DNA of 64,000 nucleotides from Comamonas terrigena NBRC 13299 (lineage in GTDB: Bacteria > Pseudomonadota > Gammaproteobacteria > Burkholderiales > Burkholderiaceae_C): positions 1,693,001-1,757,000 of the forward strand of contig NZ_AP019749.1 in NCBI RefSeq assembly GCF_006740045.1, given 5' to 3'. A program made the position numbers and the translations under genes. Below are positions 8,574 to 57,269 of the stretch, piece after piece (within the stretch, counting starts at the first letter, position 1; every line of letters starts with the position of its first letter). Under the pieces are notes generated by a model. That model made no database searches. It was not told the origin of the DNA and saw only the letters and a list, made by a program, of their open reading frames with translations.

Positions 8574-9560
8574 ATGAGCATGTTCCGCCGTTCCTTTATC
8601 GCCACCTGCGCGGGTACCGCCCTCGCGCTGTCTGCCGGGGCCGTCATGGCTGCAGGCAAGGAAGTGAAGCTGGGTTACGCCCTGCCGCAAACCTCGCACT
8701 ATGGCGCCGGCGCCAATGGCTGGTCGCAGGCCATCGAGAAGTCGCTGGGCGGCAAGTTCAGCTTCAAGCAGTTCCCCGCCAGCGCCCTGGGTGGCGAGCG
8801 TGAGCTGATCGAAGGCCTGCAGCTGGGCACCGTGGAGGCGGCCATCGTCTCCACCGGCGCCTTGAGCAACTTCGTCAACGAAGTGGGCGTGGTGGACATT
8901 CCCTTCCTGTTCCGTGACACGGCCCATGCCCGTGCGGTGCTGGACGGCAAGTTCGGCCAGGACCTGCTGGCCAAGTTCCAGCAGCGCGGCCTGGTGGCGC
9001 TGGCCTGGGGTGAGCAGGGCTTCCGCCATCTGACCAACAACAAGCACGCCGTCAAGAGCGTGGCGGACATGAAGGGCCTGAAGATCCGCGTGACGGAGAA
9101 CCCGGTGCACATCACCGCTTTCCGCACCCTGGGTGCATCGCCTACGCCCATGAGCTGGCCTGAAGTGATCAGCGCGCTGCAGCAAGGCACCATCGACGGC
9201 CAGGAGAACCCGATCTCGGTGCTGGCCTCCACCAAGCTGTGGGAGGTGCAAAAGCACCTTACACTGACGGCTCACGTGTACGCACCGGTCGTATTCATCA
9301 TGTCGCCCAGCTTCTGGGGCGGCCTGAGCGATGCGGAAAAAGCCGCCTTTACCCAAGGAGCGAAGTCCGGTGCTGCAGCCTCCCGCGCCTTTGTGGACGC
9401 TGTGGAGAAAAAGGGTGTGGAAGAGGCCAAGAGCCATGGCATGCAGGTCGTCGACAAGGTGGACCAGGCTGCTTTCCGCACCGCCCTGGAGCCTGCCTAC
9501 CAGCAGTACGCCAAGAAGTTCGGTCAAAAGACGCTGGACACCATCGCGAACGTGAAGTAA
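8574..9560 (+). CDS. dctP: TRAP transporter solute-binding protein (DctP family)
   Basis: Periplasmic binding protein that delivers an organic acid to the DctQM permease encoded just downstream. The 328-aa product has a signal peptide (MSMFRRSFIATCAG ... VMAAG) and typical DctP features: EVKLGYALP at the mature N-terminus, ALGGERELIEGLQLGTVEAAI, and MKGLKIRV with the arginine that usually contacts the ligand carboxylate, then GTIDGQENP. Start ATG 8574 has AAGGA eight bases upstream; an upstream in-frame ATG at 8535 lacks this. A 197-base gap separates it from dctQ, often a site of mRNA processing that keeps binding protein in excess. The substrate cannot be deduced; C4-dicarboxylate is the family default. 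Confidence 0.92.
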   Translation: MSMFRRSFIATCAGTALALSAGAVMAAGKEVKLGYALPQTSHYGAGANGWSQAIEKSLGGKFSFKQFPASALGGERELIEGLQLGTVEAAIVSTGALSNFVNEVGVVDIPFLFRDTAHARAVLDGKFGQDLLAKFQQRGLVALAWGEQGFRHLTNNKHAVKSVADMKGLKIRVTENPVHITAFRTLGASPTPMSWPEVISALQQGTIDGQENPISVLASTKLWEVQKHLTLTAHVYAPVVFIMSPSFWGGLSDAEKAAFTQGAKSGAAASRAFVDAVEKKGVEEAKSHGMQVVDKVDQAAFRTALEPAYQQYAKKFGQKTLDTIANVK

Positions 9561-9757
9561 GTAGCACGCGCAGTTTGCGACTGCACTGCAGGCCTGCGTC
9601 CTCTGGAAAGAGGGCCGCGGGCTGCATGCGTTGTGGGCTGTGTGTGCAGCGCCGCGGGGCAGGAATGGTCCTGATCCTCCGGCAGTGTTGGACTCCTTAC
9701 GGAACGATGGGACCGGGCGGGCAGCGCAGGCAGCTGGCCGGTTCGTCGTGACTGCAT

Positions 9758-10273
9758 ATGCTCGATCGCATCGAAAAAGGCCTGGTGGCAATCAACCGCT
9801 GGGTACTGATCTTTTTGTTGCTGGCCATGGCCATCATCATTTTCTCCAACGTGGTGCTGCGCTACACCACGGGTGACTCCATTGTCTGGGCCGAAGAAGT
9901 AGCCCGCCACATGATGATCTGGGTGGCGTTCCTGGGCGCAGGCCTGGCGCTGCGTTTTGGTGGCCATGTGGCCATCGACAATCTGCACCGCTCGGTCAGC
10001 ACACGCACGGCACAGTTGCTGCGCGCGCTGGTGCTGCTCTGCCTGGCGCTGTTCTTCATCTTCATGACCATCTCGTCCAGCGACTATGTCTGGCGCACGC
10101 GCTTTCAAAGCACGGCGGCCACGGACATTCCGATTTCCTTTGTCTACGCCGCCATGCCGGTAGGCTTTGTGCTGATGCTGGTGCATCTGCTGTTCATTGC
10201 ACGCGGCTATATCGCCGACGGTTCCTACAAGGAATCCAACGAGATCGACGGCGAAGCCGCCGGCTCGCTGTAA
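9758..10273 (+). CDS. dctQ: TRAP transporter small permease (DctQ family)
   Basis: Inner-membrane subunit with four predicted helices (about residues 17-37, 48-68, 90-110, 130-152), 171 aa, matching the DctQ family. Signature segments are NVVLRYTTGDSIVWAEEVARHMMIWVAFLGAG and SFVYAAMPVGFVLM. It pairs with DctM to form the sodium-coupled translocator. The next gene begins 27 bases after its stop. The ribosome site is weak, which fits coupling to upstream transcription. Confidence 0.92.
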   Translation: MLDRIEKGLVAINRWVLIFLLLAMAIIIFSNVVLRYTTGDSIVWAEEVARHMMIWVAFLGAGLALRFGGHVAIDNLHRSVSTRTAQLLRALVLLCLALFFIFMTISSSDYVWRTRFQSTAATDIPISFVYAAMPVGFVLMLVHLLFIARGYIADGSYKESNEIDGEAAGSL

Positions 10274-10300
10274 ACAGGGCTGAGAGAAAGAAAACACACC

Positions 10301-11584
10301 ATGGCTTTGACCCTGTTTGTTTGTATCGTGCTGCTGATGGTCCTGGGCGTGCCCGTCGCCTTTGCACTCGCCATTTCTTCCGCTGTCGCCATCTTCGTGG
10401 GCGGCAAGTACCCCCAACTGGTGGTGTTCAAGGAAATGTTCACCGGCATCGACAGCTTTCCGCTGATGGCGGTGCCGTTCTTCATCTTCGCGGCCGAGCT
10501 GATGTCCGGCGGCGCGCTCACCCATGTGCTGCTGCGCTTTGCTGCGCAGTTTGTCGGCCATCTGCGTGGCGGTCTGGGCTATGCCAATGTGGGCTCGTCC
10601 ATGCTGTTCTCGGGCATCTCCGGCTCGGCCCTGGCCGATGCGGCCGGTCCTGGCGCGATGATGGTCAAGATGATGCAAAAGGCCGGCTACGACCGCCCTT
10701 ATGCGGCAGCCCTGTCGGCCAACGCCGCCATCATGGGGCCCATCATCCCGCCGTCGATCAGCATGATCATTTACGCGCTGCAGGATGAGAACGTGTCGGT
10801 GGGCGGGCTGTTCATTGCCGGCTTCATTCCCGGCCTGTTGATCGCTGCCGCGCTGTGCGTGGTGAACTGGTATGTCAGCAAGAAGCGCGACTACCGCTCC
10901 ACCGATGCACGCCCCTCGGGCCGCGAAATGCTGGTCAACACCATCAAGGCGCTGCCGGCTCTGGGCCTGGTGGTGCTTATCATCGTGGGCATTCGTTTTG
11001 GCATCTTCACCCCCACCGAAGCTTCGGTGGTGGCCGTGGTCTATGCCTTCGTCTGCGGCAAGTGGGTCTACCGCACGCTGCGCTGGGATGCCATTCCGGC
11101 GCTGACCTCGCGCTCGGCGCTGCTCACCGCTTCGGTGCTGCTGGTGATGGCGGCGTCCCAGCCATTCGCCTGGATTCTGACGGTGGAGGGCATTCCACAG
11201 TACCTGTCCGAGCTGATCATCAGCTGGGAGCTGTCGCCCATCATGTTCCTGATTGCGGTGAATGTGCTGCTGCTGCTGTTCGGCATCTTCATGGAGCCGC
11301 TGCCGGGCATCATGATTCTGGTGCCTATCCTGGCGCCCATTGCCAATGCCCTGGGCATTGATCCCATCCAGTTTGCGATGGTGGTGGTGGTCAATCTGAC
11401 GCTGGGCATGATCACGCCACCGGTCGGTGGCCTGCTGTTTGTGACCTGTGTGGCCACCAAGACCACGCTGAGCGAGCTGAACAAGGAACTGCCGCTGTTC
11501 CTGCTGGCGCAGTTTGTAGTGCTGATGCTACTGACCTTCATTCCCGCACTGTCCACCTGGCTGCCGCATGCACTGGGCTTCTGA
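10301..11584 (+). CDS. dctM: TRAP transporter large permease (DctM family)
   Basis: Main translocation subunit, 427 aa with 11-12 hydrophobic segments across its length. DctM signatures are present: FPLMAVPFFIFAAELM, GGLGYANVGSSMLFSGISGSALADAAGPG, ANAAIMGPIIPPSISMIIY and GMITPPVGGLLFV. GAGAGAAAG-type spacing is absent, but GAGAAAG ribosome-site sequence (GAGAGAAAG) lies 10 bases upstream of the ATG. It completes the dctPQM operon. The first good terminator is about 160 bases after the stop. Confidence 0.95.
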   Translation: MALTLFVCIVLLMVLGVPVAFALAISSAVAIFVGGKYPQLVVFKEMFTGIDSFPLMAVPFFIFAAELMSGGALTHVLLRFAAQFVGHLRGGLGYANVGSSMLFSGISGSALADAAGPGAMMVKMMQKAGYDRPYAAALSANAAIMGPIIPPSISMIIYALQDENVSVGGLFIAGFIPGLLIAAALCVVNWYVSKKRDYRSTDARPSGREMLVNTIKALPALGLVVLIIVGIRFGIFTPTEASVVAVVYAFVCGKWVYRTLRWDAIPALTSRSALLTASVLLVMAASQPFAWILTVEGIPQYLSELIISWELSPIMFLIAVNVLLLLFGIFMEPLPGIMILVPILAPIANALGIDPIQFAMVVVVNLTLGMITPPVGGLLFVTCVATKTTLSELNKELPLFLLAQFVVLMLLTFIPALSTWLPHALGF

Positions 11585-11742
11585 GCGCCGTGAAAACTGC
11601 GCTGCAGCACCGTTTGGTGCAGCGGATGTGCTGCCTGCAGCGCACATCCTGCCTCGGGGCAGTTAACCGGCGATTTGCTGGGCCTGTCAGAGGCCATCAA
11701 GGCGGAGGGGAGCCAGCCTAAGAGGGCGAACTTCCTCCACGT

Positions 11743-11783
11743 AATAAAGCCCGCGATGTCGTTCGGGGGCTTTATTTATTTTG
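11743..11783 (+). terminator. Rho-independent terminator (end of TRAP operon)
   Basis: Perfect 10-base stem AATAAAGCCC / GGGCTTTATT with a 14-base loop, followed by TATTTT. The 158 bases between the dctM stop and this hairpin hold no gene, only a hairpin GCTGCAGCACC / GGTGCAGC near 11602 without a T-run. Confidence 0.85.
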
Positions 11784-11880
11784 GGAATGAAGATTTTTTC
11801 TTTTATTTCCTGTGGTACTATACGTCTGTCGGGAAATGATTGACTCCACGAAGTAGGAGTTGGTCCCCGACGCGAAATAC

Positions 11881-11957
<77 letters not shown>

Positions 11958-11961
11958 AAGA

Positions 11962-12000
11962 CAAAGCCCTGGTCAGCAATGACCGGGGCTTTTGTTTTTC
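11962..12000 (+). terminator. Rho-independent terminator after tRNA-fMet
   Basis: Long stem CAAAGCCCTGGTCA / TGACCGGGGCTTTG with loop GCAA (one T:G pair), followed by TTTTT. Confidence 0.88.
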
Positions 12001-12059
12001 TGCACTGCATGGCAACTCTGCCATGAAATTGTCACACCGCAGTGGCAGGATACATGGTG

Positions 12060-12152
12060 CTGGGAACCGGTGAAGCCGTTGGAACACTGCTTTGCCCCTG
12101 GCGCTAATTTCGAAGCTTGCGAAGCCCCGGCCTGCACCGCCGGGGCTTTTTT
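12060..12152 (+). ncRNA. Possible small RNA ending in a strong terminator
   Basis: A perfect terminator (AAGCCCCGGC / GCCGGGGCTT plus TTTTTT, 12122-12152) lies 150 bases after the previous terminator with no protein gene in between. A promoter-like pair TTGTCA (12029-12034) and TACATG (12051-12056), 16-base spacer, would start a transcript of roughly 90 bases ending here. The terminator is directly seen; the promoter and RNA are inference. It could instead be a second-chance terminator for tRNA-fMet. Confidence 0.3.
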
Positions 12153-12285
12153 GTATGGAAAGTTAAACAAGCCCTTGCCTGACGGCAGCACGCTGGGGCA
12201 GACGATGGCCATTGCGTGGCATCCGCTGAAGACTGGAGGCAGCCAGGGCATTGGTGCCCTGGCACATGTTTCCAAGGAGAGGCAG

Positions 12286-12645
12286 ATGAACACCAACAAA
12301 GCAGACCACTTCGCACACACGCCGACCGACCCCGATCTGCGCGAGCAGGCGCAACCCGGGCACGGCGTTCCTTCGCAAGACCCCGAGGACGCGGCCCAGG
12401 TGGGCCTGACGCCGGAGGAGGCTGCGCGGGAAACCAAGTCCTCCTGGGTCGGCGGCGGGGTGATTGCCGGAGTGGCCGCGGGCGCGGCAACGGGCGCTGC
12501 CGTGGGTGGGCCGGTCGGGGTGGTGGTGGGCAGTGCCGTCGGTGCGGTGGCCGGGGCCCTGGGAGGATCGGCTGCGGGCGCGGCGGTCAAGCCCGATCAG
12601 GCCCAGGCAGACGCCGACTCAGAGACCCGGCAGGGCCCGAAGTGA
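12286..12645 (+). CDS. Glycine-zipper domain protein
   Basis: A 119-aa protein with a hydrophilic N-terminal half (proline- and glutamate-rich, HTPTDPDLREQAQPGHG) and a C-terminal glycine-zipper membrane segment (about residues 53-100, repeated GxxxG/AxxxG: VAAGAATGAAVGGPVG). Such proteins insert in or associate with membranes and are often linked to envelope stress; the function here is unknown. Start at 12286 is supported by AAGGAG seven bases upstream; the open frame runs back to 11992 through the terminator and is not coding there. It sits near two other small stress-type genes (12782-13037 and 13243-13785). Confidence 0.8.
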   Translation: MNTNKADHFAHTPTDPDLREQAQPGHGVPSQDPEDAAQVGLTPEEAARETKSSWVGGGVIAGVAAGAATGAAVGGPVGVVVGSAVGAVAGALGGSAAGAAVKPDQAQADADSETRQGPK

Positions 12646-49000: not shown

Positions 49001-49157
49001 TTGAGAATTTCCAGCCTGTAACTTGACTTGCCTCCAAGGAGAGAGAGGCAAAAACGCCAGCGACATCCATACAAGAATGGAGGCTGCTACACGTTCGGGG
49101 GCATACTACTTAAAAGCAATTTCCATACATCGGGCGCAGACGCCGCCGTTGAAAACC

Positions 49158-50540
49158 ATGCAAGACGACAATGCGCCCCTCTGGTTGCCGCGATTGGCCA
49201 GGCAGGGCGGACCACGCTTTTTGCAGATCGCCGATGCCTTGCAGGCGGCGGTGGCAGACGGATCGCTGAAGCCGGGTGACCGCCTGCCGCCGCAGCGCCA
49301 CCTGGCGGCGCTGCTGGACGTCGACCTGACGACGGTCACGCGCGCCTACGATGAAGCCCGACGCCGCCACCTGCTGGAGGGCCGCGGCGCGCGCGGCACG
49401 TATGTGGCGGCGCCGAAGGTCGAACTGACCTCGGTCCTCGATTTGAGCATGAATACCCCGCCACCGCCGGAGGGGGTGGATTTTGACGACTTGCTGAAGC
49501 AAGGCTTGTCCCAGGTATTGATGCGGGCCGATGCGGAATTGCTGATGACCTACCACCTGGGCGGAGGCAGCGACTCCGACCGCAAGGCCGGAGCCCACTG
49601 GCTGGCGCCGATGTTTGGAGCGCTGGATGCAGGGCAGATGGTGGTCTGTCCGGGGGCACAGGCGGCGATTGCCGCGTTGATTCTTGCACTGACGGAGCCG
49701 GGCGATGTGATCCTGGCCGAGCCCGTCAGCTACCCCGGTTTGCGTGCCGCAGCGACCCAGTTTGGTCGGCGCATCATTGCGGTGGAAGCGGACCAGCACG
49801 GGATGGTGCCCGAGAGGCTGGAGCAGGCGTGCCGCCAGCACCAGCCCGGGTTGGTCTACCTCAACCCGACCTTGCAGAACCCGACCGCCATCACCATGGG
49901 CGAACGCCGGCGCAAGGAGATCGCCAGCATCGCCAGGCGCTGCCGTGTGCGCATTGTCGAGGACGATCCCTACTGGCTGCTGGCCGATGCCCCGCCGCCA
50001 CCGATTGCGACCTGGGCCCCGGAACAGGTGTACTACATCTCCACCCTGTCGAAGTGCCTGACACCCGGCTTGCGCGTGGCCTTTGTGCTCATCCGTGACC
50101 CGCATGAACGGGAGCGCTTTCTGGTGGCGCTGCGCTCCTTTGCGCTGATGGTTGCGCCCTTGACGGCCGCACTGGCCACGCAGTGGATTCTGGACGGCTC
50201 GGCTGATGGATTGATGGAAGGCGTGCGCAAGGAGGCGCGCCTGCGCCACCGGATGGCCAGGGATATTCTGGCGGGGCGGTACAGCGGCGCCGGAGACGGC
50301 CTGCATGTCTGGCTGGAGTTGCCGGGGTATTGGAGCTCCGCCCAGCTTGCGCGTGCAGCCGGCAGCGAGGGCATCGCCGTCACCCCGGCGGAGGCATTTT
50401 CCACGGGCAGCGAATCCGTGAATGCCATCCGGATCTCTTTGGGCAGCATCAAGGACCGTTCACGTCTGAAGGCGGGTCTGCAACGCCTGTCCCATCTGCT
50501 TGCGCGTCGGCCCGAGCCGTTCAGTGCTGCGGTGGTGTAG
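49158..50540 (+). CDS. MocR-family regulator (GntR HTH fused to aminotransferase fold)
   Basis: A 460-aa protein with a GntR winged HTH at residues about 10-75 (FLQIADALQAAVADGSLKPGDRLPP, DLTTVTRAYDEARR) fused to a fold-type-I aminotransferase domain (110-450). The PLP lysine lies in ISTLSKCLTPGLRVAF, and YLNPTLQNPTAITM and EDDPYWLL mark the cofactor pocket. MocR proteins use PLP or an amino compound as effector. The target gene is not evident: the small membrane protein is divergent from it. Start MQDDNAPLWL fits the family; the frame stays open upstream. Confidence 0.9.
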   Translation: MQDDNAPLWLPRLARQGGPRFLQIADALQAAVADGSLKPGDRLPPQRHLAALLDVDLTTVTRAYDEARRRHLLEGRGARGTYVAAPKVELTSVLDLSMNTPPPPEGVDFDDLLKQGLSQVLMRADAELLMTYHLGGGSDSDRKAGAHWLAPMFGALDAGQMVVCPGAQAAIAALILALTEPGDVILAEPVSYPGLRAAATQFGRRIIAVEADQHGMVPERLEQACRQHQPGLVYLNPTLQNPTAITMGERRRKEIASIARRCRVRIVEDDPYWLLADAPPPPIATWAPEQVYYISTLSKCLTPGLRVAFVLIRDPHERERFLVALRSFALMVAPLTAALATQWILDGSADGLMEGVRKEARLRHRMARDILAGRYSGAGDGLHVWLELPGYWSSAQLARAAGSEGIAVTPAEAFSTGSESVNAIRISLGSIKDRSRLKAGLQRLSHLLARRPEPFSAAVV

Positions 50541-51067
50541 TGGTGCAGAACCCAGGGCGCGGCATGCCGGCGTTTTCTCCAAGTGGTGGGGCACGAAGTG
50601 GCAGCTTGGTGTTTATGCCGCGTGAGATCAGGGCCCCTTGATACCCATTGCTTGGGCTCTTCGCTGCCTGTCGAGTCCGGAGCAATGGGAGTCCGTTGGC
50701 GAGCACTGGCCCGTCTGTGGTTCCCGTGTGGACCATATCAATGAATGCCATGCCATGGTTCTCGGGGAAGGTAGGCACAAATTCCTTGCCAGGAGCCGCG
50801 ATATGTCAAAGGCGCAATTGATAGTGCCATCAATGAATGGAGCGATTCCTGCTGTGCTTGTCTTGATCTTGCGCATCAAATGCGTACATCAGGCTGAGCA
50901 GGATCGCTGCACACGCATTCTGTGGCGCGAGCGCAGTGTGTTACTGGCTCCATTTTTCCGTGCTGCCGTGCTGTCATGAGGCGATAGGTGTGGGGTGGAA
51001 TAACCTATCGACGCCGCGCGATGGCTGAGTGTTATTTGTGCAACAAAAACGGAGTGGCCCGCAGGAG
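50541..51067. other. Transition region from high to low GC, no gene
   Basis: About 530 bases without a convincing gene. The open frames on both strands (50628-50979) have poor composition and no ribosome site. GC falls toward the right and continues low through the next gene, suggesting the left border of transferred DNA. Confidence 0.5.
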
Positions 51068-51146
51068 GTGACAACGCCAACTGTAAAAATATAGAATCAC
51101 GAAAATTTTAGCCATGCCTATACACATTTTGGCATGTGCGTTTTTT
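51068..51146 (+). promoter_or_regulatory. Promoter and attenuator-like leader of the low-GC orphan gene
   Basis: GTGACA (51068-51073) and TATAGA (51090-51095) with a 16-base spacer form a good promoter. Between it and the gene start (51174) lies a hairpin CATGCC (51113-51118) / GGCATG (51131-51136) followed by TTTTTT (51141-51146), the form of an intrinsic terminator inside the leader. It could attenuate expression; this is inference. Confidence 0.45.
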
Positions 51147-51173
51147 ACTGAATAACTGATTCTTGGTGGTTGC

Positions 51174-52097
51174 ATGAATATTTTTGGTGTTTCATCTCAT
51201 TCATCTATTGGCTATCGTGTAGAAGATAGAGGCGCCAAGTCTTCGGCGAAGGCTCCAGATGCTGAGGCTGGAACATCAAATGCTGCAGTTTCTGTGAATA
51301 TCAGTGGCAAGGCTTTGCTGTACTCTCGTATCTTCAGGACGACAGACCTGTCGAAAGAGCTTCATGTTGAGACGGAAGTGGGGACTACCAAAAGCCTGAC
51401 TACCAGTAAATATGATTATTTATCGAGAGATGACCGGGAGCTGTTGGCGTCTATTTATGACTACGCATCTGACAATAACATTGATCTCAGGCATGTAGAT
51501 ATTTTCGCTGATGAATTGGCTGGTTTTCGTCAGTCGGGCTGGGTGCCTGCTGGAGATCTATATACATTGGATGGAAGAAAAATCACTGCCGATTTCAATT
51601 CAGCAGACAAAGAGGTGGCCAATAGAATAAAAGATTCCAAAGAATTTTCATCTACCAAGATTGATAAGGCCTTTCTCAATAGAATTCTGGACAGCAGCAG
51701 ACCAGTCCATGCGGTGGATTTTGAATTTTTAGAGCATCTGGTTTCTGCTTTTTCAGCTGATGGAGTGCCCAGTAATTCTGCTGAAAAGTTCGCCACTTAT
51801 GACAACAAGCCTGGCTCGTGGGTGACGCATATTTCCGATGAAGTGGATGCAAGATTTATCCCGGAGGAGCCTGACCTGATCAGTATCAATGGTGGGCCAT
51901 ACTTCAAAAATCCGAAGAAAGACACATTGTCTAATGACGAATTTTTGAAAAGCATTGATGTGAATCTGGTATCAAAATACTTGTCCGAGTTTGTCGATTC
52001 ATCGTTTAAAAAAACAGATTCTGCCAAGGCAACCTCGGAAGACAATAATTGGATCGGAGGCCTTTACCAAGGCGTAAAGAAGATGATTGGCGGGTGA
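51174..52097 (+). CDS. Low-GC orphan protein, 307 aa
   Basis: GC about 40-45% in sampled lines against 65-70% around it, so almost certainly transferred. The protein has no signal peptide or membrane helix. The N-terminal 45 residues are Ser/Ala-rich and probably disordered, followed by VSVNISGKALLYSRIF, then DYLSRDDRELLASIYDYASDNNIDLRHVD, and a long alpha-rich rest ending NWIGGLYQGVKKMIGG. Proteins with the LLYSR.F start and D....IYDYA..N.IDL.HVD pattern are recalled from pseudomonads and other proteobacteria without known function. A disordered start and low GC are typical of secreted effectors or cargo, but no secretion signal is proven. Confidence 0.75.
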   Translation: MNIFGVSSHSSIGYRVEDRGAKSSAKAPDAEAGTSNAAVSVNISGKALLYSRIFRTTDLSKELHVETEVGTTKSLTTSKYDYLSRDDRELLASIYDYASDNNIDLRHVDIFADELAGFRQSGWVPAGDLYTLDGRKITADFNSADKEVANRIKDSKEFSSTKIDKAFLNRILDSSRPVHAVDFEFLEHLVSAFSADGVPSNSAEKFATYDNKPGSWVTHISDEVDARFIPEEPDLISINGGPYFKNPKKDTLSNDEFLKSIDVNLVSKYLSEFVDSSFKKTDSAKATSEDNNWIGGLYQGVKKMIGG

Positions 52098-52198
52098 TGC
52101 ACCGCCTTAGTCGCGATATCCGTTCTCAACTCATTGTTTGTCGCCGACCGTGTGATGGCGACTCGCCTCTGCACTGAGCCGCGCTGCCCTCCGTCGTA

Positions 52199-52537
52199 TC
52201 ACACAGCCGCCAAAGCGGCCAGGTGACTGTCCGCATTGCTTCCAGTGCTGGCGGCATTCACGTGGTCGAAATAGCCGTACCAGCCGCTGGCCTGGATGCC
52301 GGCCAGCAAGGCGTCCCGCGCGGCCAAGGTAGGGAAGCGCCAGATGCCAAGAAATCGGTGTGCGCTGCCCTGGTCGATGCCGGGATCGGTTTCTGCCAGT
52401 GAGAGGACTTCGACCCCCACGCTGGACAGCTGGGCAAGGGCACTTCCGATGTGGCCCAGAAACTGCTGGCGCTGTGTGGCGGGCAGTGCGTGCCAGGCGG
52501 CGTTGGGCGTATAGAGTTCCACGAGGTAATGGGACAT
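52199..52537 (-). CDS. Small DUF6616-like protein
   Basis: A 112-aa protein that reads MSHYLVELYTPNAAWHALP, then QFLGHIGSALAQLSSVGVEVLSLAE, then HRFLGIWRFPTLAARDALLAGIQASGWYGYFDHVNAA: a ferredoxin-like alpha/beta fold similar to small antibiotic-monooxygenase/YCII-type proteins, recalled as DUF6616. Start 52537 with AAGGAAG upstream. It is the third gene after marR and the alkD-like gene, with a 25-base gap, so it is probably in that operon. Confidence 0.72.
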   Translation of the reverse strand: MSHYLVELYTPNAAWHALPATQRQQFLGHIGSALAQLSSVGVEVLSLAETDPGIDQGSAHRFLGIWRFPTLAARDALLAGIQASGWYGYFDHVNAASTGSNADSHLAALAAV

Positions 52538-52562
52538 GGTGCTTCCTTGGTATCGGTGTTGT

Positions 52563-53336
52563 TCAGCGGAGATTGCGCAGGGCGCGTTGGCAGATGCGCT
52601 GTGTGGCGCCGGTGGGGGCGTGTTCCAGCCATTGGGCGCAGGTGGCGCGCACCCAGTCGGGCTGATCCTTGGCTGCGTCATTGAGCCAGTTGGCGACCGA
52701 GTCCTGCACATAGGCGGATGGGTCGGCACGCAGCGCAGACAGCAACGGCAGCGCTTGGCCGGGCATCTTTTTGAGCGCGTCGATGTGGGTGCTCCACACG
52801 CCGCGGGGGCGCAGCACCTCGCACGCGAAACGCCGGATGCGCTCCGACGGGGCCTGCGTCCATGGCATCAGATGGGCCAGGGCTGTAGGTAACTCTGCCA
52901 CCAGGTACGGCCGCACGGCCATCCAGGCCCATTCGCGCACCCCAAAATGCGCGTCATCTGCCAGCGGGCGGATGGCGGCTAGCCGAGCTTTCACATCCAG
53001 TCCGGGCTGAGCGCCGATCATGAAGCACGCCCAGCCGCGCACCATGTCCGCGCCGTGTGCCTGGCACTGGGTGAGACCCTCTGTGCCCAGCGCCTCCAGC
53101 AGGATTGCACCGATGCGGGCCATGCGCTTGAGCACGCCCAGTTGGCAGGCGGCATCAATGGCGTGCAGCGCAGAAGGCGCCAGCCCCGGAAAGACCGCCC
53201 GTGCCAGCACGGCCTGATCGATGGCCAGGCATTCCGCCAAGGTGGCGCTTTCCAATTCCCCATGCGAGAGCGCATGCAGCATATCCCGGGGAATGTCGGC
53301 CGCGCGCGTTGCGCCGGTTCGGATGGTCTGGCTCAT
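52563..53336 (-). CDS. DNA alkylation repair protein, AlkD-like HEAT repeats
   Basis: A 257-aa, all-helical HEAT-repeat protein related to AlkC/AlkD DNA glycosylases, which remove alkylated bases. Helical repeat units are visible at LARIGAILLEALG, ARLAAIRPLADDAHFGVREWAWMAVRPYL, IRRFACEVLRPRGVW and LLSALRADPSAYVQDSVANWLNDAAKDQP, the last two close to the conserved Trp/Asp pattern. Its ATG overlaps the marR stop by four bases (ATGA). Start 53336 chosen for this coupling. Confidence 0.82.
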   Translation of the reverse strand: MSQTIRTGATRAADIPRDMLHALSHGELESATLAECLAIDQAVLARAVFPGLAPSALHAIDAACQLGVLKRMARIGAILLEALGTEGLTQCQAHGADMVRGWACFMIGAQPGLDVKARLAAIRPLADDAHFGVREWAWMAVRPYLVAELPTALAHLMPWTQAPSERIRRFACEVLRPRGVWSTHIDALKKMPGQALPLLSALRADPSAYVQDSVANWLNDAAKDQPDWVRATCAQWLEHAPTGATQRICQRALRNLR

Positions 53337-53827
53337 GGTGCGGTACTCGCCAGACGGCCCGCCACCTTGCCCAGCAAGCTGGTCAGCTGCTGGCGTTCGG
53401 TGGTGGACAGGTGGCCGAACAGGCTGGCGATCCATTGGCCATGCTGGGCGATGACGGTGCTGGCCAGCTGCTTGCCTTTGGGAGTCAGCCGGATGCACAG
53501 TGCGCGGCGGTCCTTGGCATTGGCGTGGCGTGCAACCAGTTGCTCGCGCTCCAGCCCGTCGAGCAGGCCGGTCACGGTGGCACGGGTGACCCCGGCGCGT
53601 TCGGCCAGCACGTTGGGTGCGAGCCCGTCAGGTGCCGCATCCAGCAGGAACAGCAGCACAAACCGCCCCTCGGACAGGCCATGGGGGGCGAGCAGGGTTG
53701 CACAGTCCCGGTCGATATGGGCCGACAGCGACAGCACCTGGAAGCACAGCTGGATGCCATCCACATCCGGCAGCTTGCGCCTTTGCGCTTCGTCGATGAG
53801 TGCCAGGTACTTCTGCTCCAGCTGCAT
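53333..53827 (-). CDS. MarR-family regulator
   Basis: A 164-aa MarR-type winged-helix repressor (VLSLSAHIDRDCATLLAPHGLS, then ERAGVTRATVTGLLDGLEREQLVARHANAKDRRALCIRLTPKG, quoted in part). It is the first gene of a three-gene set with the alkD-like and DUF6616-like genes, so a signal such as an alkylating or oxidising chemical may induce base repair. Start at 53827; a longer frame to 53866 is possible. The sequence upstream carries an inverted repeat typical of a MarR operator. Confidence 0.88.
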   Translation of the reverse strand: MQLEQKYLALIDEAQRRKLPDVDGIQLCFQVLSLSAHIDRDCATLLAPHGLSEGRFVLLFLLDAAPDGLAPNVLAERAGVTRATVTGLLDGLEREQLVARHANAKDRRALCIRLTPKGKQLASTVIAQHGQWIASLFGHLSTTERQQLTSLLGKVAGRLASTAP

Positions 53828-55027: not shown

Positions 55028-56029
55028 TTACTTGATCTGCACCACGACTTTGCCTTTGGCGCGGCCTTGCGCAAGATACGCCAAGGCCTGCTGGGCCTGC
55101 TCCCATGGAAACACCTTGTCGATGACCGGGCTGATATGCCCGGCGCTGAGCAGTTCCCCAATCCTGTCCAGTTGCTCACCGTCCGGCCGCACAAACAGGA
55201 AGGAGTAGCCCACGCCATGCGCAGATGCCTTGCGGATGATCTTCCGGCTCATCAGGCCAAAAATCAGCCGGAGCACAAAGTTCAACTCCCGGGTGCGCGC
55301 AAAGGCGGCGTCCAGAGGGCCGATGAGCGAGATGATTTGCCCGCCCGGCTTCAGGATGCCGACCGATTTTTCCAGCGCATCCCCGCGGATGGTTCCCAGG
55401 ACCACGTGGTATCCGCGCAGTACTTGCTCGAACGCCTGGTTTGTGTAGTCAACCACTTCGTCTGCGCCCAGGTGCGTGACCAGGGGGACGTTTCCGGTGC
55501 TGGTGGTGGTGCCCACGTGGGCGCCCAGGTGCTTGGCCAGCTGAATCGCAAACGTACCAATGCCGCCGGAGCCGGCAGGAATAAACACCTTCTGACCTTG
55601 CTTCAGCTGGGCGCGCTCTTTCAGCGCTTGCCAGGAGGTTAGCCCCACCATCGGAACCGATGCGGCCTGCACGAAATCGAGATTGGCAGGTTTGGGTGCG
55701 GCCAGGTTTTGGGGGACCACCGCAAATTCGGCGAGCGATCCGGTTCCCTGGTCAAAGATGCTGGCAAACACTGCATCGCCGGGCTTGAAGCGCGTGACGT
55801 CGCGGCCCACTTCCACCACCACGCCCGCCAGATCGCTGCCCATGGTAGCGGGCAGCTGGAATGGGAGTACGGCTTTGAAGATGCCGGTCGTAATCATGTT
55901 GTCGATGGGGTTCAGTCCGGCTGCATGTACTTGGACCAGCAGCTCGTCGGGCTGTAGCGTGGGGCGGGGCAGCTCGGTGATGCCGATCTCTGGCGACTTG
56001 CCATAGCGTTGGAAGGTGAGGGCTTTCAT
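55028..56029 (-). CDS. NADP-dependent quinone-oxidoreductase-like enzyme (zinc-free MDR)
   Basis: A 333-aa medium-chain dehydrogenase/reductase of the zeta-crystallin/QOR type. The N-terminal GroES-like part begins MKALTFQRYGKSPEIGI, the cofactor site reads PAGSGGIGTFAIQLAKHLGAHV (Rossmann GxGGxG), and KVVVQIK closes the chain. The zinc ligands of alcohol dehydrogenases are absent. It probably reduces quinones or enones with NADPH. Starts 56029 (GGAACACC upstream). Apparently monocistronic; next to nemA-type reductase genes on the same strand. Confidence 0.88.
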   Translation of the reverse strand: MKALTFQRYGKSPEIGITELPRPTLQPDELLVQVHAAGLNPIDNMITTGIFKAVLPFQLPATMGSDLAGVVVEVGRDVTRFKPGDAVFASIFDQGTGSLAEFAVVPQNLAAPKPANLDFVQAASVPMVGLTSWQALKERAQLKQGQKVFIPAGSGGIGTFAIQLAKHLGAHVGTTTSTGNVPLVTHLGADEVVDYTNQAFEQVLRGYHVVLGTIRGDALEKSVGILKPGGQIISLIGPLDAAFARTRELNFVLRLIFGLMSRKIIRKASAHGVGYSFLFVRPDGEQLDRIGELLSAGHISPVIDKVFPWEQAQQALAYLAQGRAKGKVVVQIK

Positions 56030-56142
56030 GGTGTTCCAGCAGGTGGGTTGCAGAGGCTGCAGATGGGGAGGCACATGTGCGGCCTCCTACTTGGGCCGGT
56101 CTTCGGCGCCCTGGTGTTCCGGTTGGGGGCATCGGAGGGTTG

Positions 56143-56448
56143 TCACCGCACGAGGAGGGCGAGCACTTTCGGGACGAAGTCCTTGTGGCACGGGAAGATC
56201 ACTCGGTGGTCTGTATCGGGATAAAACTGTCGCTGGCGCTGGGCAGGCGTTTGGCCGGTTTGTACGGCGTACCCCTTGGCCAGGGCACGGGCCGCATCAG
56301 GCACACACAGCGCTGCGTGCTGCGTGCTGCGCGCGCCCATGGCACGGTTGCCGCCCACACGCCCACACGCCCACACGCCCACACGCCCACACGCCCACAC
56401 GCCCACACGCCCACACGCCCACACGCCCACACGCCCGCAGCATGGCAA
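56143..56448 (-). CDS. Doubtful ORF spanning the 8-base repeat array
   Basis: Minus-strand frame of 101 codons. Its first half is translated repeat (GRVGVWACGRVGVWAC), its last 55 codons give CVPDAARALAKGYAVQTG ... YPDTDHRVIFPCHKDFVPKVLALLVR, which reads like a real protein end, but GC at third positions is only about 70%, lower than in neighbours. It may be a remnant gene into which the repeat expanded, or chance. No ribosome site. Confidence 0.25.
   Translation of the reverse strand: MPCCGRVGVWACGRVGVWACGRVGVWACGRVGGNRAMGARSTQHAALCVPDAARALAKGYAVQTGQTPAQRQRQFYPDTDHRVIFPCHKDFVPKVLALLVR
56353..56436. repeat. Tandem array of 8-base unit GCCCACAC, about 10.5 copies
   Basis: Ten perfect copies from 56353 to 56432 plus four bases of an eleventh, in the intergenic region between the SDR gene (stop 56481) and the MDR gene (start 56029). 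The unit length is not a multiple of three, so any slippage would change a reading frame crossing it. Confidence 0.95.
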
Positions 56449-56480: not shown

Positions 56481-57269
56481 TCAGGCCTGTGGCTGGTAAC
56501 GCTCTGCGGCATGGGCCTGGCGGATGTCGGACATCAGGCCCTGGCGCGCCTGGTTCAGTCCATCCCAGCGCTGCGCGACATGCAGTGGTGGAATGGTCAC
56601 CAGTTCCTTGCGGTCAAAGCCCACGAGTGCTGCGTCCACAAGCTCACCGACTTCCATCACCTCCGGCAGGGTGTTGATGTCAACGCCGGAGCGGCTCCAG
56701 ATTTCCGTGCGGGTGGCGGCCGGCAGCACCGCCTGCACGTAGACGCCCTTGGCGCCCAGTTCCACATGCAACCCCTGTGACAGGAACAGCACAAAGGCCT
56801 TGGTGGCGCCGTAGATGGTCATGCCCAGCTCCGGCGCGAAGCCCACGACCGATCCGATGTTGACGATGGCGCCCTGGCCCGCTTGTGCAAAACGCGGCGC
56901 GACAGCGGCCGCCAGCCGGGTTGGCACGGTGGTGTTGAGCATCACCAGGCGGTCGATGCTGTCGGGGCTTTGCTGGACGAAGGCGCCGGATTGCCCCATG
57001 CCCGCGTTGTTGACCAGGATGCCGATGGAGGCGTCTTCGCGCAGGCGCGCCTCCACCCTGGCCAGGTCGGCTTGCTGGGTGAGGTCGGCGGGCAGCACAT
57101 CGACCGCGACCTGGGCTTCTGCGCGCAGGCGGGTGGCCAGCAGTTCCATGCGGGCCTGGTCGCGGGCCACCAGCACAAGCGGATGGCCGCGGCGGGCAAA
57201 GCGTTCTGCGTAGGTGGCGCCGATGCCGGAGGATGCGCCGGTGATGAGGACGGTAGGCAGGGTGGTCAT
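56481..57269 (-). CDS. Short-chain dehydrogenase/reductase (SDR)
   Basis: A 262-aa classical SDR: cofactor motif TGASSGIG at residues 10-17, NNAG in ILVNNAGMGQSG, catalytic Ser in NIGSVVG, and YxxxK in IYGATKAF. Rossmann fold; reduces or oxidises a carbonyl/alcohol with NAD(P)H. ATG 57269; no strong ribosome site. Lies downstream of nemA on the same strand (245-base gap), so it may share control with it. Confidence 0.92.
   Translation of the reverse strand: MTTLPTVLITGASSGIGATYAERFARRGHPLVLVARDQARMELLATRLRAEAQVAVDVLPADLTQQADLARVEARLREDASIGILVNNAGMGQSGAFVQQSPDSIDRLVMLNTTVPTRLAAAVAPRFAQAGQGAIVNIGSVVGFAPELGMTIYGATKAFVLFLSQGLHVELGAKGVYVQAVLPAATRTEIWSRSGVDINTLPEVMEVGELVDAALVGFDRKELVTIPPLHVAQRWDGLNQARQGLMSDIRQAHAAERYQPQA

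Follow-up and report, generated by a model that had tools for sequence, protein, structure and literature searches.

The locus and its low-GC gene

The window analyzed here, a stretch of 64,000 nucleotides from the Comamonas terrigena NBRC 13299 genome (4.67 Mb, single contig), contains an intact open reading frame of 307 amino acids at positions 51174-52097 on the plus strand that stands out by its base composition. Its GC content is 0.433 and its GC3 0.425. The other 49 window ORFs that reach 150 aa, a greedy, mechanically picked set that may include false ORFs, average 0.648 in GC content (sd 0.034, minimum 0.546) and 0.706 in GC3 (minimum 0.544). In a GC profile of 64 blocks of 1 kb, the block 51001-52000 was the lowest (0.433), followed by a block at 0.545. 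A finer profile placed the low-GC block at about 51050 to 52100, near the 51068-52097 given in an earlier note on this DNA, so that it hardly exceeds the gene and its leader.

The left neighbor (49023-50540, plus strand), which we take to be a MocR/aminotransferase-like gene, is conserved in the genus, while the content to its right varies. The gene on the right flank (52566-53339, minus strand), presumably encoding an alkylation-repair (HEAT)-like protein, was present in 24 of the 53 genus genomes. Neither the 307-aa gene nor the right-hand genes of the window were found within 1.5 kb to the right of the left neighbor at 29 loci of other species. Four genomes were seen to have the two flank genes on a single contig and less than 25 kb from each other; there they share a strand and are separated by about 11-24 kb, compared with 2.0 kb and opposite strands in the window. 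The insertion place of the gene is variable, and no flanking repeats were found around it. Further along the window, a perfect 8-bp tandem repeat, CGCCCACA, is present in 10.6 copies at 56352-56436 between the minus-strand ORFs 55028-56074 and 56481-57269, and its copy number could vary by slippage.

In a search over 100 genomes, 53 of them from the genus, the 307-aa gene was carried only by its own genome and was absent from all 52 other genus genomes. Horizontal acquisition is well supported by the composition, by the lack of the gene in these other genomes and by the variable neighborhood. Two claims of the earlier note, namely that the base composition of the gene lies sharply below that of its surroundings and that the gene was acquired, are borne out by these data.

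Promoter candidate and leader hairpin

The same note had described a good promoter followed by a hairpin and T-run ahead of the start codon, and both elements are present in the sequence. The sigma-70-like promoter candidate GTGACA-N18-TAGAAT (51068-51097, plus strand) matches the consensus at 10 of 12 positions with a spacer of 18. Chance alone would produce such sites in DNA of this length: two were found in 2.1 kb versus 1.8 +/- 1.6 in shuffled sequences. A comparison was possible with the 73%-identical relative P0002, whose predicted protein carries 89 additional residues ahead of the family start, which allowed its leader to be compared as degenerate, back-translated DNA. Positions 51070-51101 of the window matched this leader with a score of 19.4, and none of 100 mononucleotide shuffles scored above 16.1. 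The match, in the one relative compared, favors a promoter element that may be active in the host.

The hairpin with its run of six T residues (51111-51146, plus strand) consists of a stem at 51111-51118 and 51131-51139 with one bulge, a 12-nt loop and the T-run at 51141-51146. A standard terminator scan listed no plus-strand terminator in 50500-52600; it missed this hairpin because its loop limit is 8. The folding energy of 51098-51180 was average for its composition (z -0.09, with 83 of 200 shuffles at least as stable), and under a looser hairpin/T-run rule, set after the site had been seen, 9 of 1000 leader shuffles and 26 of 2412 window tiles qualified. The match to the P0002 leader stops short of the hairpin. 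No choice of codons for the last 29 residues of the P0002 extension gives more than three consecutive T residues; as far as one relative tells, the terminator is therefore no conserved feature. The hairpin exists as described in the earlier note and would constitute a weak, unproven attenuator or terminator.

A sparse protein family

A search with the single sequence returned eight proteins, comprising the window protein's own cluster and seven relatives to which it is 44-73% identical with many invariant columns. Searching plasmids by tblastn gave matches in Pantoea and an IncP plasmid. A ten-sequence profile extended the set to 50 proteins, including representatives from Pantoea, Yersinia enterocolitica, Serratia symbiotica, Rahnella, Kosakonia, Citrobacter and Achromobacter, and a wider profile, with scoring limited to the top 7997 candidates, brought in Pseudoalteromonas and Psychrosphaera. 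With its own cluster included, the family found by these sequence and profile searches comprises at least 64 proteins. The term orphan, used for this protein before, does not hold in its strict sense given the 63 further related clusters recovered by these searches. The window protein matches the core profile and carries the SGxxLMxSRLF-like helix as well as the FLTxxDR...DLxxVD...R motifs of the family, its own sequence being one row of the profiles used for this assignment.

Carriage is rare, with two of 394 genomes in the order of Pantoea anthophila (the P. anthophila genome included) and four of 399 in the order of the window (own genome included). In the tree, the window protein paired with P0003 (support 99/81) and then with P0004 and P0005; where long branches meet, several of the groupings are uncertain. 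P0001, P0002, P0024, P0029, P0034 and P0050 were left out of the tree, and the same six together with P0010 and P0044 were left out of the N-terminal statistics below; these rows are mostly truncated, extended or from the own cluster, and P0034 was dropped without good reason.

Searches of the domain libraries gave the window protein no name: the best Pfam hit had an E-value of 0.015 (15.4 bits versus a cut-off of 27), NCBIfam and PADLOC returned no match, and the best PHROGs E-value was 0.026. Among 41 members scanned against Pfam, no Pfam family was matched by more than two, again with a best E-value of 0.015. The 307-aa protein appears to be a member of a widespread but sparse, partly plasmid-borne and apparently undescribed family.

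These findings bear on a reading close to that of the earlier note, in which the gene is a decayed or selfish passenger, functionless in its host and silent under H-NS-type control combined with the leader terminator. The low GC content, the lack of an adjoining partner gene and the hairpin with its T-run are what one would expect of such a passenger, but the reading frame is intact, the protein shares its invariant columns with the seven relatives, the promoter-like segment is matched in P0002 and the leader of that relative allows no T-run above three. We regard this explanation as improbable.

Predicted protein architecture

The AlphaFold model of the window protein has a mean pLDDT of 69.6. 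Residues 1-39 (51174-51290), a Ser-rich N-terminus, have pLDDT values under 50 and are probably disordered; they are followed by the conserved helix SGKALLYSRIF (residues 44-54, 51303-51335; family consensus about SGxxLMxSRLF) and by a conserved, mainly helical core at about residues 80-220 (51411-51833), which is predicted with high confidence and is the most confident part of the model. The disordered Ser-rich start and the alpha-rich, conserved-looking body noted earlier from the sequence are both recovered in this prediction. The model of a distant relative, P0056 (mean pLDDT 72.3), agrees with it over about residues 1-125, where low-confidence start (1-39), short SGxxLMxSRLF helix and helix-rich core follow one another in both. 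The two-helix module of the core occurs twice in the G656-type proteins, P0056 among them, with 15 of 44 residues identical in the pair compared; in P0056 the helices at 254-299 repeat the pattern of 79-125.

In 57 family proteins, Ser and Thr together made up on average 34% of residues 2-43 versus 16% of residues 81-220, a segment that is not equivalent to the core in members with long N-terminal extensions, while acidic residues made up 5% versus 15%. The start was richer in Ser and Thr than residues 81-220 in 56 of the 57, and the window protein, with 21% Ser and Thr in its N-terminal segment, is milder in this respect than the family mean. No Sec-like hydrophobic segment was detected within the first 60 residues, where the top 15-residue Kyte-Doolittle mean averaged 0.65 with a maximum of 1.5.

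A disordered Ser-rich start ahead of a folded core would also suit an effector-like substrate of a type III export apparatus, either flagellar or of the injectisome kind. Besides the N-terminal composition, the low GC content here, the patchy distribution of the family and two FlhA-like genes in the host genome speak for such a substrate. Both FlhA/FlhB-like loci (C1:448000-462000 and 276000-292000), however, look on visual inspection like two flagellar systems. The injectisome markers stayed below their curated cut-offs in this genome, with a best score of 573.9 bits versus 692.25 for the SctV/HrcV-type marker (TIGR01399) and a best score of 92.5 versus 238.45 for the SctC/YscC-type marker (TIGR02516); no control genome exceeded these cut-offs, so both searches are without positive control. 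A different type of exporter adjoins the family gene in six of the 15 loci described below, and a type III substrate is in our judgment a rather unlikely identity for this protein.

Small Sec-type proteins and exporter genes at family loci

Fifteen family loci were compared (L002, L003, L005, L006, L013, L014, L024-L027, L058-L061 and the window), with the near-identical L004 counted with L003, and L009 and L010, from the same species, counted with L005. L024 contains the family gene in three tandem copies (8858-12329). The GC content of the family gene was more than 0.03 below that of its flanks in ten of the 15 loci, about equal in two (L002 and L059) and above it in three (L013, L014 and L026); given these differences, low GC is no fixed trait of the family.

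In nine of the 15 loci the family gene lies beside a gene for a small protein with a Sec-type signal, as judged by eye, and two cysteines that are invariant in the seven sequences of profile A6. Seven of these nine small proteins supplied the profile that finds them, and L024 and L061 are the independent, partial matches. Exporter genes, comprising an ABC ATPase, a MacB-type permease, TolC and HlyD, were present in six loci, all of them among the nine, as five sets, one of which is interrupted, and one ATPase start. Small protein and exporter were found together in L003 (Pantoea CFBP8756; Pfam MacB_PCD/FtsX), L059 (Citrobacter RHB35-C17), L058 (Rahnella H145, exporter set interrupted by an insertion), L060 (Deefgea D17, exporter on the opposite strand) and L024 (G656, small-protein frame without signal; Pfam OEP, HlyD and ABC_tran), while L061 (Rahnella S2-A69) has a small-protein fragment and the first part of an ATPase, where the record ends. 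The exporter names come from Pfam for the domains just given in L003 and L024, from ORF translation for L061 and from record annotation for the rest. The small protein without exporter genes was seen in L025 (G656), L014 (G344) and L027 (G750, on the opposite strand). The remaining six loci, the window among them, lacked the small protein, and nine of the 15 lacked exporter genes.

The family is linked to the small Sec-type protein in a good share of the loci and to a MacB-type exporter in fewer, and the exporter operon was mostly plasmid-borne in the loci seen. In Deefgea piscis D17 (L060), the small protein, family gene and exporter genes account for a large part of a 15.6-kb plasmid. No description of a link between this family and a mobile exporter operon was encountered in the titles and opening parts of abstracts covered by our literature search.

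On plasmid pALTS33 (L006), a different small Sec-type protein occurs together with a 791-aa fusion that includes two copies of a companion domain. This domain, NPFxGxSRxxL...YDDSGxYTxNERxAA, was observed in L006, L024, L058 and L062, either as separate proteins (in the G656, Rahnella and Shewanella loci) or fused to the family of the 307-aa protein, and the members scanned had no Pfam match above cut-off. The companion proteins in L006, L024, L060 and L062 have similar Ser/Thr-rich starts, as judged by eye.

The direct adjacency of family and small-protein genes in operons can also be read as that of a cytosolic immunity or resistance factor acting against the small exported protein or another product of the pump, in which case the window copy would be an orphan immunity gene. 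Layouts of toxin, immunity and exporter genes are common, the family protein has no Sec-like signal, three tandem copies follow a single, probably truncated small-protein frame in G656, and several loci hold copies without the small protein. Against this, the proteins are large (300-450 aa) and, in pALTS33 and P0047-P0049, carry additional fused domains, a Ser/Thr-rich disordered start would be odd for an immunity protein, and to our knowledge no inhibitory activity of the small protein has been described. An immunity function seems unlikely, if less so than the passenger and type III readings.

The solo copy and its interpretation

No match to the small protein was obtained in a six-frame search of the window with A6, and neither exporter nor small-protein ORFs lie beside the gene. 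Elsewhere in its own genome, A6 and the poorer profile A4 gave zero matches to the small partner and the companion domain gave none, in searches that had no positive-control genome. The window copy resembles an isolated component of a mobile secretion module.

The reading we prefer, still tentatively, is that the gene was acquired horizontally and by itself, belongs to a mobile family with links to an exporter, and most likely encodes an exported accessory or effector protein, where both export and function are conjectural. Some of the relatives have a short operon for the small protein, the family protein and a MacB-type tripartite exporter. The small protein would enter the periplasm by Sec, form a disulfide and leave via a MacB-HlyD-TolC pump, with the family protein as its presumed functional partner, which would most likely be exported too, as a further accessory or effector protein. 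As the family protein has no Sec-like signal and MacB pumps load from the periplasm, the adjoining exporter is not expected to carry it; the Ser/Thr-rich start, similar to that of the companion proteins, might point to another export route or to targeting. The window copy may have been acquired alone with its own promoter candidate and would have to act alone or borrow an export route of the host.

A bolder and more doubtful version is a plasmid-spread, so far undescribed module in which the small disulfide protein and the large protein with the Ser/Thr-rich start are both exported via a dedicated MacB-HlyD-TolC pump, and which includes the companion NPFxGxSRxxL...YDDSGxYTxNER proteins sharing this type of start. 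Solo copies would then represent effectors or protective genes that were acquired singly. If the proteins of the module are exported together, they would represent a further class of MacB-linked protein secretion. What had been an anonymous low-GC orphan becomes a member of a recognizable family tied to a recurrent exporter operon, whose central protein carries no name in any library searched.

Comparison with known systems

One of the seven small partner proteins weakly matches the flagellar protein FlhE (PF06366; E-value 0.0023, 18.4 bits), below the gathering score of 25 bits and in this one member only. Parallels are also found among MacB-type pumps. In E. coli, heat-stable enterotoxin II reaches the periplasm by Sec and is exported from there by MacAB-TolC, and the Aat pump is a relative of MacB-type pumps (PMC7943197, PMC8277102). 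The six of 15 loci in which such exporter genes occur close to the small Sec-type protein with its cysteine pair, or to a fragment of that protein, resemble this arrangement, with the MacB kinship resting on Pfam for the one permease of L003. Unlike MacAB-TolC, the loci of the relatives encode ATPase and permease as separate genes and have a family gene without Sec signal beside or between the exporter genes, while the window copy has no exporter. By analogy, the small cysteine-paired protein fits the role of a MacB-type pump substrate. The Aat system of enteroaggregative E. coli secretes Aap/CexE, which is moved out of the periplasm by a MacB-like ABC transporter working with an adaptor and a homologue of TolC (PMC7943197). 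The operons of the relatives differ from it in that their annotation tables name no AatD-like acyltransferase, but would share with it the secretion of a periplasmic substrate by a MacB-like transporter, adaptor and TolC homologue.
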